Origin: Trueperaceae bacterium
Lineage (GTDB): Bacteria; Deinococcota; Deinococci; Deinococcales; Trueperaceae
Direction: 5' to 3'
Length of the DNA: 45,973 nucleotides
Assembly (NCBI GenBank): GCA_011389865.1
Contig: JAABTL010000023.1
Span: forward strand, 1-45,973
The notes beneath the pieces were generated by a model. That model saw only the letters and a list, made by a program, of their open reading frames with translations. It was not told where the DNA came from and made no database searches. A program made the translations under genes and the position numbers. Shown one piece after another: positions 23,577 to 26,955 of this stretch (its first letter is position 1; each line of letters begins with the position of its first letter).

Positions 23577-24446
23577 ATGACCATGGACGTCCACATCCGA
23601 CCGCTGTTGACGATGGACGCGCTGCGTACCTGCGAGGAGTTGCAGAGCCGGGTGTGGGGCTACCGCGACCGCGAGATCGTGCCGGCGGCGCAGATCCGTG
23701 CCGCGCTGCACGCGGGCGCACTGGTCGCCGGGGCGTTCGTCGGCCGCGAGCAGGTCGGCTTCCTGTACGGCTTCCCGGCGTTCGCCCACGAGCCGGGGTT
23801 GCGGCCCTTGGGCCTGCACTCGCACATGATGGCGGTGGTCCCCGAGGCGCGGGGCCTGGGTCTTGGTCGGCGCCTCAAGTGGTACCAGCGGCGCTGGTGC
23901 CTGGAGCGCGGCATCGATTGGGTCGCCTGGACCTTCGACCCGCTGCAGGCGGGCAACGCGCGGCTGAACCTCGAGCACCTCGGCGTGGTGGTCCACGAGT
24001 ACCACGTCGACTTCTACGGCGTCCTCGGAGGCGTGCTGTCGGGCGAGTTGCCGACCGACCGCTTCGTCGGCCTGTGGCGGCTCGACTCGCCGCGGGTGGG
24101 CGGGCGCGCCGGCGACGATCCGCACGCGGCCTTCTTCCGCGTCGATGGCGACGCCCCCAGTGGGCGCGCCGCACTGCCGCCCGGTCCCGATGCCGTCTGG
24201 GCACTGGCGCGCGACCCGGAGCGCGACGCACCGGGTGCGGTGACGCTCGGGCTCGACGCCGACGACGTGTGGGTCGCGGCGCCGCGCGCCATCGGCGCGC
24301 TGCGGCGCGAGGCGCGGAACGACGCGCTCGCCTGGGGCGAGGCCTTCCGCGCCGCCTCCGTCGACCTGGTGGAGCGCGGATACGAGGTTCGAGCCTTCCT
24401 GGACGGCGCTTATCGCTGGTGGCGGAGGGCGGCAGAAGAAGAATAG
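23577..24446 (+). CDS. Predicted GNAT-superfamily acetyltransferase (COG3375-like)
   Basis: 289 residues. The first 165 residues form a GNAT fold: LQSRVWGYRDREIVPA, GFLYGFPAFA, LHSHMMAVVPEARGLGLGRRLKWYQR (the acetyl-CoA loop, in the form GLGLGRR), and WTFDPLQAGNARLNLEHLG, a diagnostic segment of the COG3375 group. The rest (about 165-289) has the family's LPTDRFVGLWRLDSP and a less conserved tail. The substrate of this group is unknown to me. ATG 23577 and ATG 23583 are both possible; the first is 8 nt from a -10 element. Confidence 0.82.
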   Translation: MTMDVHIRPLLTMDALRTCEELQSRVWGYRDREIVPAAQIRAALHAGALVAGAFVGREQVGFLYGFPAFAHEPGLRPLGLHSHMMAVVPEARGLGLGRRLKWYQRRWCLERGIDWVAWTFDPLQAGNARLNLEHLGVVVHEYHVDFYGVLGGVLSGELPTDRFVGLWRLDSPRVGGRAGDDPHAAFFRVDGDAPSGRAALPPGPDAVWALARDPERDAPGAVTLGLDADDVWVAAPRAIGALRREARNDALAWGEAFRAASVDLVERGYEVRAFLDGAYRWWRRAAEEE

Positions 24447-24456
24447 AAAGACGGGC

Positions 24457-24485
24457 TTGACAATCTGACAATGCTCGCCTATCAT
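24457..24485 (+). promoter_or_regulatory. Strong promoter of the SHOCT-like operon, with direct repeat
   Basis: TTGACA (24457-24462), a 17-nt spacer and TATCAT (24480-24485). TGACAAT occurs twice, 8 bases apart, starting inside the -35 hexamer, and may be an operator. Confidence 0.75.
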
Positions 24486-24504
24486 CTTGAGCAAGGAGGC
24501 GAGT

Positions 24505-24750
24505 ATGTACGTCAACAACGTTCTGCCCCACGGCGCCGCCTACGCCGCGCAACTCCGCAAGGAGGCCGACAGCGCCCGCCTCCTCGCCCAGGCACAGCAG
24601 CCCAGCCTCGATCGGCTCATCGTCGCCCGCGCCCTGCTCGCCCTCGCCCGCCGGATCGTTCGCTTCGCCGAGCGGATCGAGCCCACCGCGGCGGACGCCG
24701 CGAACTGGCGCCCCAACCGCCCCAACCGCCCCGTCCGCACGACCGCCTGA
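24505..24750 (+). CDS. Small unknown protein, first gene of the SHOCT-like operon
   Basis: 81 residues; I do not recognise it. It starts MYVNNVLPHGAAYAAQLRKEADSA, then has an amphipathic, alanine/leucine/arginine-rich helix (about 30-57) and a repetitive C-terminus with RPNRPNRP. No signal peptide or membrane segment. ATG 24505 has an excellent AAGGAGG site and one of the strongest promoters in the window, which argues that it is a real, well-expressed gene. A long hairpin separates it from the next gene. Confidence 0.75.
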   Translation: MYVNNVLPHGAAYAAQLRKEADSARLLAQAQQPSLDRLIVARALLALARRIVRFAERIEPTAADAANWRPNRPNRPVRTTA

Positions 24751-24757
24751 TCGGCAC

Positions 24758-24803
24758 GGCCCGCGCCCCCAGCGACGGCCAAGCGTCGCGGGGGGCGCGG
24801 GCC
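24758..24803 (+). terminator. Long hairpin between the first two genes of the SHOCT-like operon
   Basis: 13-bp outer stem (24758-24770 with 24791-24803) enclosing a second 6-bp stem (24772-24777 with 24784-24789). It is followed by CCTAC rather than a T-tract. It may be a partial terminator or an RNA-stability element giving more of the first protein than of those downstream. Confidence 0.6.
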
Positions 24804-24827
24804 CCTACAGCCACGCGAGGAGGAGCC

Positions 24828-25688
24828 ATGAACGACATCGAGCGCGTCCGAGCCCTGCGCGACGCAGGTCAGATCACCCCCGAGGAGGCCGAGCGCTTGA
24901 TCGGCGTCCTGACCGAACTCGACGAGTCCCACGAGGACGTGGACGTCGAGGTGGCGGGAACTGCTGCGCCGGCGGCCGTGCCGGAGGCGGGTGTGCCCGA
25001 GGCCGCGGCACCGGTGCACGAGCCGGTCGCTGCGGCCACGGCGGCGACCGACGCGATCGATCTCGCCCCTGCGGGTACCCGCTGGTGCGCGATCGAGTTG
25101 ACGGCCGCCGATCTGAGCGTCGTCGCCGACGACGTCGACGAGCCCGTCGTCCAGGGCGACGACGAGCAGAAGCTGCGCGTCACGCAGACCGACGACGGCG
25201 TCCGCGTCACCTCCGAGCGCGGCTGGTCGCTCGACCGCTGGGTCGGGCGCACCCCCTCGCTCGACGTCCGCGTCCGGCTCCCGAGGGCCTGGGGCGTGGC
25301 GCTCGATCTCAAGGCGGGCGACGCCGACGTGGCCGGCGTCCGCTACGTCCGCGGCCGCATGCTGGCCGGCGACCTCTCCGTGCGCGACGCCGAGTCCGTC
25401 GACCTCTCCAAGGCCGCCGGCGACCTGTCCGTCGCGTTCCGGCCCACACAGGGCCGCCACCGCATCGCCGCCAAGGCGGGCGACGTCGACGTCCGCTTCC
25501 TGCCGGGCAGCGACGCGGCGGTCGAGGCCTCGGTGTCGATGGGCGACCTGCACGCGCCCGGCTTCGAGATCGACGACCGCATGGTCGGCGCGCAGGCGCG
25601 CGGACGCGTCGGCGCCGGCAACGCGCGGGTCGAGGTGCGGCTGACCGCCGGCGACCTCAGCCTTCGCGCCCCCGCCAAGGAGGGGTGA
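24828..25688 (+). CDS. SHOCT-like and DUF4097 protein (YvlB/LiaX-like architecture)
   Basis: 286 residues. Residues 4-30 form a short helical segment with the pattern ALRDAGQITPEEAERLIGVL, as in the SHOCT-like N-terminus of YvlB and LiaX. A proline/alanine/glutamate linker (about 42-75) follows, then a repetitive beta region (about 83-283) with recurring AGDLSV, AGDADV and AGDVDV turns, the DUF4097 beta-strand repeat. No signal peptide or membrane helix is seen. In Firmicutes such proteins take part in cell-envelope stress responses; that role here is inference. GAGGAGG precedes ATG 24828. Confidence 0.85.
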   Translation: MNDIERVRALRDAGQITPEEAERLIGVLTELDESHEDVDVEVAGTAAPAAVPEAGVPEAAAPVHEPVAAATAATDAIDLAPAGTRWCAIELTAADLSVVADDVDEPVVQGDDEQKLRVTQTDDGVRVTSERGWSLDRWVGRTPSLDVRVRLPRAWGVALDLKAGDADVAGVRYVRGRMLAGDLSVRDAESVDLSKAAGDLSVAFRPTQGRHRIAAKAGDVDVRFLPGSDAAVEASVSMGDLHAPGFEIDDRMVGAQARGRVGAGNARVEVRLTAGDLSLRAPAKEG

Positions 25689-25690
25689 CC

Positions 25691-26116
25691 ATGGCCGCCC
25701 AGGACGAACGCAAGAAGGTGCTGGACATGCTGGCCGCCGGCCAGATCAACGTCGACCAGGCGAGCGAACTGCTGCGCGCCCTAGGGGACGCCCCGACCGG
25801 CGCGGCCGCGCCGCCCCCGCCGCCCAAGCCGGCCCGCACCGGCACGGCGCGGATGCTGCGCATCTCGATCGACGCGAACGACGACGGCGATGGCGACCGC
25901 GCCAAGATTCGCGTCAACGTCCCGCTCGGCCTCGCCAAGTTCGCCGGCCGCTTCCTGCCGGCCGAGGCGCGCACCGAGCTCGAGGCGCAGGGCATCGACC
26001 TCAGCGAGCTCATCAACGCGCTCTCCACGGAGACGCCCGAGGGCAAGCTCGTCGACATCGACGTCGACGACGACAGCGGCGGCAAGAAGGCGAAGATCGT
26101 CGTCGAGGTCGTGTGA
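25691..26116 (+). CDS. SHOCT-like domain protein
   Basis: 141 residues. Residues 5-33 (KKVLDMLAAGQINVDQASELLRALG) repeat the helical pattern seen in the preceding protein. A proline-rich linker (about 41-50) leads to a domain with LRISIDANDDGDGDRAKIRVNVPLGLAKFAGRF and an acidic end DIDVDDDSGGKKAKIVVEV. The second part looks like the conserved region that accompanies SHOCT-like N-termini in many uncharacterised bacterial proteins. ATG 25691 lies two bases after the previous stop. Confidence 0.82.
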   Translation: MAAQDERKKVLDMLAAGQINVDQASELLRALGDAPTGAAAPPPPPKPARTGTARMLRISIDANDDGDGDRAKIRVNVPLGLAKFAGRFLPAEARTELEAQGIDLSELINALSTETPEGKLVDIDVDDDSGGKKAKIVVEVV

Positions 26117-26529
26117 TGCAGAGCTGGCCCCGCTGGGGCGAGGCCGACTGGTGGGTCCGCTACCTGGACGACGTCCGCCCTCGGCTGCTCTGGCTGCGGC
26201 TCGAGGCCGACAAGGTCCGGATCCGCTGGGGCGTGCCCGTGTGGGCGCTCGAGGAGTCGCTGCGCGCGCTGTTGCTGCTCGGGCCCTGGGTGCTGTGGGT
26301 CGCTCGGCACCTGCCGATCAAGGCACGCGTGAAGGCCAGCGGAGAGTTCAAGCGCGGCCGCTTCCGCCTCGACCTCGACCTGTCCGGCGAGCCCGGACCG
26401 GCGCCGTGGCACACGGCGCTAGCCCTGCTCGAGGGCGCCGGCGAGGGCATGCTGCGCCTGCCCACGGGCGAGCCCTTCGTCCACGTCGAGGCCGGTGACG
26501 GCGTGCGGATCCAGATCGTCTCGTACTGA
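26116..26529 (+). CDS. Unknown protein of the SHOCT-like operon, possibly membrane-associated
   Basis: 137 residues; family not recognised. The N-terminus is tryptophan-rich (four of the first 25 or so residues) and a hydrophobic segment at about 50-65 (LRALLLLGPWVLWVARHLP) could lie in or on the membrane. The C-terminal half is beta-like and ends with FVHVEAGDGVRIQIVSY. ATG 26116 shares its A with the preceding TGA stop; a GTG one codon earlier is also possible. Strict coupling to the SHOCT-like gene suggests that the two products act together. Confidence 0.72.
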   Translation: MQSWPRWGEADWWVRYLDDVRPRLLWLRLEADKVRIRWGVPVWALEESLRALLLLGPWVLWVARHLPIKARVKASGEFKRGRFRLDLDLSGEPGPAPWHTALALLEGAGEGMLRLPTGEPFVHVEAGDGVRIQIVSY

Positions 26530-26568
26530 CGGGGGCGCGGCCCGACCGCGCCCCGGAGAGGCCAAACC

Positions 26569-26955
26569 ATGAACGACAAGCACCCGATGCCCACCCGCTG
26601 CCCCGTCACGGGCGAGTCGCTCGAGGTCACCCGCCTGCGCGGGCCGAACTCCGGCGTCGTCATCGAGGGCAACTTCTTGCCCAACGAGTTCGCCCTGCTC
26701 GACCGCGAGAGCCTCGACTACCTGCGCCTGTTCGTCAAGGTCCGCGGCAACCTCAAGGAGGTCGAGCGCATGCTCGGCGTCAGCTACCCGACGGTGCGCG
26801 CGCGCTTCGAGCAACTGCTGCGCGCGCTGGGCTACGAGGCAGCCGCCGAGGAGCCCGGTCCGTCCCGCGCGGACGTTCTGGGCCAACTCGAGCGCGGCGA
26901 GATCACCGCCGAGGAGGCGACGCGGGCGTTGAAGGGCCTGCAGCGGGCGAACTGA
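26569..26955 (+). CDS. DUF2089-family protein with SHOCT-like C-terminus
   Basis: 128 residues. The core matches DUF2089: FLPNEFALLDRESLDYLRLFVKVRGNLKEVERMLGVSYPTVRARF, a region with a helix-turn-helix-like part (about 60-82). The family normally opens with a zinc ribbon; here only one of its cysteines (C11) remains. Residues 101-124 (ADVLGQLERGEITAEEATRALKGL) repeat the SHOCT-like pattern found at the N-termini of the two proteins at 24828 and 25691. It may be the regulator or a partner of the operon. ATG 26569 follows GGAGAGG. Confidence 0.85.
   Translation: MNDKHPMPTRCPVTGESLEVTRLRGPNSGVVIEGNFLPNEFALLDRESLDYLRLFVKVRGNLKEVERMLGVSYPTVRARFEQLLRALGYEAAAEEPGPSRADVLGQLERGEITAEEATRALKGLQRAN

Follow-up and report, generated by a model that had tools for sequence, protein, structure and literature searches.

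A Toastrack/SHOCT-like/DUF2089 operon of the Deinococcota with a dedicated promoter element and a possible role as a kinase-free envelope-stress switch

Five adjacent genes (P1 to P5) in the window, the whole 45,973-nucleotide stretch of DNA analyzed here, are, with a probability of about one half, the Deinococcota form of the Toastrack/SHOCT-like/DUF2089 system, working as an autoregulated, kinase-free envelope-stress switch. The layout of the operon in Deinococcota, its dedicated promoter and the most likely origin of one of its proteins, P4, are newly worked out.

In the proposed switch, P5, an HTH regulator, would act on the promoter of its own operon through an element that overlaps and flanks the -35 box, and its C-terminal SHOCT-like bihelix would pair with those of P2 and P3. 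P2 and P3 would form a sub-membrane scaffold that holds P5, with P4 (by its hydrophobic helix) and the small helical P1 tying this scaffold to the inner face of the membrane. Envelope damage, the presumed signal, would alter the scaffold such that P5 is freed or remodelled and transcription of the operon changes. The full version, in which P5 regulates a single operon through an own-promoter element found about once per genome, SHOCT-SHOCT docking on a Toastrack scaffold is the switch and the P4 duplicate is membrane-associated, is put forward tentatively. If true, a kinase-free envelope-stress circuit would be conserved across Deinococcota, built in part by duplication of a scaffold domain (P4).

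Operon layout and the shared SHOCT-like segment

The originally predicted five-gene operon is confirmed: in the window, one promoter is followed by five ORFs that lie on the same strand and have good ribosome-binding sites. The features are:

24447–24485, + strand: promoter element AAA-N7-TTGACA-N7-AA-N8-TATCAT (AAA at 24447–24449, -35 box at 24457–24462, -10 box at 24480–24485)
24466–24472, + strand: second TGACAAT copy, not conserved in relatives
24505–24750, + strand: P1, small helical protein of 81 aa, first gene of the operon
24828–25688, + strand: P2, N-terminal SHOCT-like segment and C-terminal Toastrack (DUF4097) domain
24867–24905, + strand: SHOCT-like match in P2 (Pfam PF22746 search and profile comparison)
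25691–26116, + strand: P3, N-terminal SHOCT-like bihelix and C-terminal beta-beta-alpha(3)-beta-beta domain
25703–25786, + strand: SHOCT-like domain of P3 (PF22746, above cut-off)
26116–26529, + strand: P4, Trp-rich, most likely derived by duplication and divergence from the P3 C-terminal domain; long hydrophobic helix at residues 42–64
26569–26955, + strand: P5, DUF2089 protein with a degenerate zinc ribbon (residues 11–42), HTH (44–90) and SHOCT-like segment (100–123)
26866–26940, + strand: SHOCT-like match at the P5 C-terminus (Pfam PF22746 search and profile comparison)

The neighbouring upstream gene (23577–24446) has no Pfam match at 1e-4 and stops right before the AAA of the element; the closest relatives have a conserved copy of this gene's 3' end in the upstream position.

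Across Deinococcota the genes are found together. P5 (DUF2089) is found in 104 of the 111 genomes of the phylum, and three of the seven genomes that lack it still carry the promoter element, which suggests an assembly gap in these three. Of the Deinococcota DUF2089 loci, 52 have 3 kb or more of upstream DNA (they come from two overlapping sources, such that some genomes appear twice, and one of them may not be of Deinococcota); P2 is present in 42 of these, P3 in 48 and P4 in 32, in the same order. Direct searches place P4 in 22 genomes, nearly always adjoining P5, and an iterated profile finds it in more. The P2-P3-(P4)-P5 order is conserved in Trueperaceae, Thermus, Meiothermus and Calidithermus, with P2 missing from some Thermus loci; named records with the operon include Thermus, Meiothermus, Calidithermus and Truepera, and no Deinococcus genome is recognizable among the genomes searched. 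In Bacillota, Spirochaetota, Chloroflexota and others, the DUF2089 gene usually comes first, followed by genes for SHOCT-like or SHOCT-Toastrack proteins; we count this position, first rather than last, against the proposed switch.

The segment common to P2, P3 and P5 is the Pfam SHOCT-like domain PF22746 (SHOCT-like_DUF2089-C). With E allowed up to 10, the whole genome yields just five matches to this domain, three of them in this operon. P3 lies above the curated cut-off of 27 bits (E = 5.1e-8, 32.7 bits); P5 (E = 0.0015, 18.5 bits) and P2 (E = 0.11, 12.6 bits) lie below it. That two of three matches miss the cut-off, and that the segments are short (about 30 residues), would agree with an unrelated helical pattern in a chance gene neighbourhood. 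Profile-profile comparison, however, gives probabilities of 98.5% for P2/P3, 96.9% for P3/P5 and 95.2% for P2/P5, with scores of 31–56 against column-shuffled maxima of 14–21, the compared sequences having been chosen with a loose motif that favours a match. A P3 profile built without motif selection also picks up, throughout the phylum, the N-termini of P2 proteins and the C-termini of P5 proteins. On these three lines the segments are homologous, as originally proposed, and gene order is conserved across the phylum; the co-occurrence in 52 loci refutes a chance neighbourhood, and we regard that explanation as extremely improbable. The further suggestion, that this common segment might bring about assembly of the proteins, is plausible.

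P1 matches no family in Pfam or NCBIfam. Most loci with an identified promoter have a P1-like small ORF ahead of P2, and in promoter-bearing loci these ORFs (about 51–91 aa) usually start 17–24 bases past the -10 box. An EA box together with an R..LA..L...A..LEP box, a pattern picked after inspection of the P1-like sequences, occurs in 25 of 32 of them (shuffles, 3.1; maximum, 9).

Promoter element and the DUF2089 protein

The promoter, TTGACA-17-TATCAT (24457–24485), has 11 of 12 consensus bases and is the sole sigma-70-type match in 5.5 kb, where 0.1 would be expected. The repeat of TGACAAT reported with it is real in the window (24458–24464 and 24466–24472), but relatives keep only the first copy (TGATAAA, TGATAAT, CCATAAA), and the repeat is therefore ruled out as an operator. 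The aligned promoters have two features in common: an AAA located ten bases ahead of the TTGACA box, and a spacer patch rich in A. The corresponding pattern, AAA-N7-TTGACA-N7-AA-N8..10-TAnnnT, has 81 distinct matches in 111 genomes, with one in the genome studied here; 51 lie on the same strand upstream of a DUF2089 gene, one per genome, and 30 lie elsewhere. A control with shifted spacing and equal information yields 17 scattered matches in the 111 genomes. The pattern was derived from these same operons, such that its presence there is expected and its rarity elsewhere is the test.

Several of these other 30 matches have recognizable contexts. Some belong to the operon itself on contig fragments, as confirmed for two at contig ends, and two others, in two genomes, are second copies of the element, away from DUF2089, followed by a P1-like ORF and a second Toastrack-like gene (an assignment that rests on TSNG repeats read in the sequence). 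The element stays with P5 when other operon genes are lost: it precedes DUF2089 alone at one locus from which P1 to P4 are gone, and at another it is kept with P1-P3-P4-P5 after loss of P2.

A conserved promoter could reflect promoter strength and not a regulator, which counts against the proposed switch. The operon would then be a constitutive housekeeping module with a strong sigma-A promoter and an upstream A-tract, its proteins forming a permanent scaffold without feedback and P5 acting elsewhere. The near-consensus -35 and -10 boxes, the lack of an inverted repeat in the element and the loss of P5 zinc ligands in part of the phylum (described below) are all consistent with such a module; however, a promoter that was merely strong would be expected at other highly expressed genes too, whereas genomes carry the complete element about once each, mostly at this operon, and it follows P5 through gene loss. 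We consider a housekeeping module somewhat unlikely. It is less probable still that an unlinked regulator controls the promoter while P5 transduces the signal to other targets, e.g., exporters. In three genomes of one genus, the element immediately precedes a gene pair for an ABC ATPase and an ABC-2 permease, which may be a second target or background, and DUF2089 genes adjoin ABC transporters in leaderless bacteriocin clusters. Yet with a chance level of about 17 matches per 111 genomes, the three sites of a single genus may be background or shared ancestry, and no gene other than P5 is seen to accompany the element in this way.

A palindrome or inverted repeat is the binding site of many dimeric HTH proteins. 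When 56 promoter sequences were tested for inverted repeats and covariation, no palindrome or convincing operator emerged; a palindromic operator is thus rejected, and we count the missing inverted repeat against the proposed switch. Counted in its favour are the SHOCT-like homology, the HTH resemblance, the conserved gene order, the placement of the element and its retention with P5, together with the P4/P3 duplication, the hydropathy of P4 and the published Toastrack/DUF2089, YvlB and LiaX relatives. The near-unique element offers a concrete candidate binding site for DUF2089, a family of unknown function present in many phyla.

P5 matches PF09862 (DUF2089-HTH, E = 3.5e-21) and PF22747 (E = 1.8e-9), and also resembles the PucR-type HTH_30 (E = 0.005). 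In its zinc ribbon, CPVTGESLEVTRLRGPNSG, three of the four Cys positions are replaced and one is kept. Over the 34 residues at the start of the DUF2089 match, Cys number two or fewer (0–2) in 37 of the 70 distinct sequences from Deinococcota and at least four in each of the 33 sequences from other phyla (none with two or fewer). Judged by these counts, the zinc ligands of P5 have been lost in about half of the Deinococcota.

Origin of P4

P4 has no family match in Pfam or NCBIfam. A 22-sequence P4 profile aligns with most of the P3 C-terminal domain at 45.8% probability (31% after trimming), and P4 scores 25.4 against the profile of that domain, compared with 10.0±1.7 (mean and sd; maximum 16.2) for 200 shuffles. 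The AlphaFold models of P4 and P3 (mean pLDDT 85 and 83, respectively) have the same order of two strands, helices and two strands, and the broken helix pair of P3 corresponds to a single 23-residue hydrophobic helix in the P4 model. The profile score and the agreement in secondary-structure order make it most likely that P4 arose by duplication of the P3 C-terminal domain and then diverged; an orphan protein thereby gains an origin.

A 19-residue stretch with hydropathy of at least 1.6 is present in 12 of 22 P4 homologues and in 0 of 20 P3 homologues. The hydrophobic helix suggests membrane attachment of P4, less so in this genus: in the genome studied here its hydropathy is 1.18, weak for a transmembrane segment. 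We count this weak helix against the proposed switch, as we do the fold search of the P3 and P4 models against the PDB, which returned no match at E 0.001 or better.

A 91-aa Oceanirhabdus protein (locus L148, 6799–7071), encoded after a DUF2089 gene and a P3-like gene, resembles the P3 C-terminal domain by eye. This stand-alone domain was rejected as a counterpart of P4, the profile comparison not being significant.

Relation to known systems

The original prediction called the gene set undescribed. This does not stand: Pfam already has a named domain for the SHOCT-like segment, and Ravi et al. 2024 (mSystems, PMC11237479) defined the Toastrack and SHOCT-like domains and a four-gene Toastrack-DUF2089 context, so the present operon belongs to a described kind. 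Those authors proposed signal transduction from membrane to transcription with a PSP-like membrane-stress role, in which Toastrack and SHOCT-like domains provide a sub-membrane assembly platform and DUF2089 the transcriptional output. Compared by the main text of that paper, the operon shares a Toastrack/DUF4097 protein, a DUF2089 protein composed of zinc ribbon, HTH and SHOCT-like segment, and partners with SHOCT-like segments, but differs in that it ends with DUF2089, encodes a small protein of the P1 type as well as the P3/P4 pair, and has its own dedicated promoter. An intact Cys set, a feature of the Pfam zinc ribbon that Ravi et al. 2024 do not state as required, is absent in P5. Deinococcota are not mentioned in the main text of PMC11237479, and a search of the main texts of accessible papers found no description of the promoter element, the P1-like ORF, the gene layout in Deinococcota or the duplication that links P3 and P4.

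The DUF4097 domain predicted in P2 is borne out by Pfam (PF13349, E = 3.6e-7, above cut-off) and is the genome's only DUF4097 match; no transmembrane-like stretch was found in P2. The nearest studied relatives, LiaX and YvlB, act in envelope stress, as had been stated, and in both the Toastrack domain that they share with P2 belongs to a membrane-stress protein. YvlB (B. subtilis yvlABCD; CAB15517.1) has a SHOCT-like domain at its N-terminus (PMC11237479) and interacts with PspA and LiaH, while LiaX (Enterococcus liaXYZ) binds daptomycin and modulates LiaFSR. Their output is the LiaFSR two-component system. Within the operon there are no two-component kinase or regulator genes, and the LiaG model scores 36, its cut-off being 285. 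DUF2089 was not found in B. subtilis; a Bacillota DUF2089 locus has genes for a SHOCT-Toastrack protein and a phage-holin-4 (YvlD-like) protein.

The likeness to the classical PSP system (PspA/Vipp1) lies in the proposed envelope-stress role and in Toastrack as a partner domain. PspA/IM30 (PF04012) is absent from the 97% complete genome studied here and present in 9 of 14 control genomes; in a genome without PspA, the operon may be the main PSP-like system.

One genome of the phylum has a second DUF2089 gene; the gene next to it encodes a protein that has a SHOCT-like segment at its N-terminus and HGID/HGV repeat units, each about 20–25 residues long.
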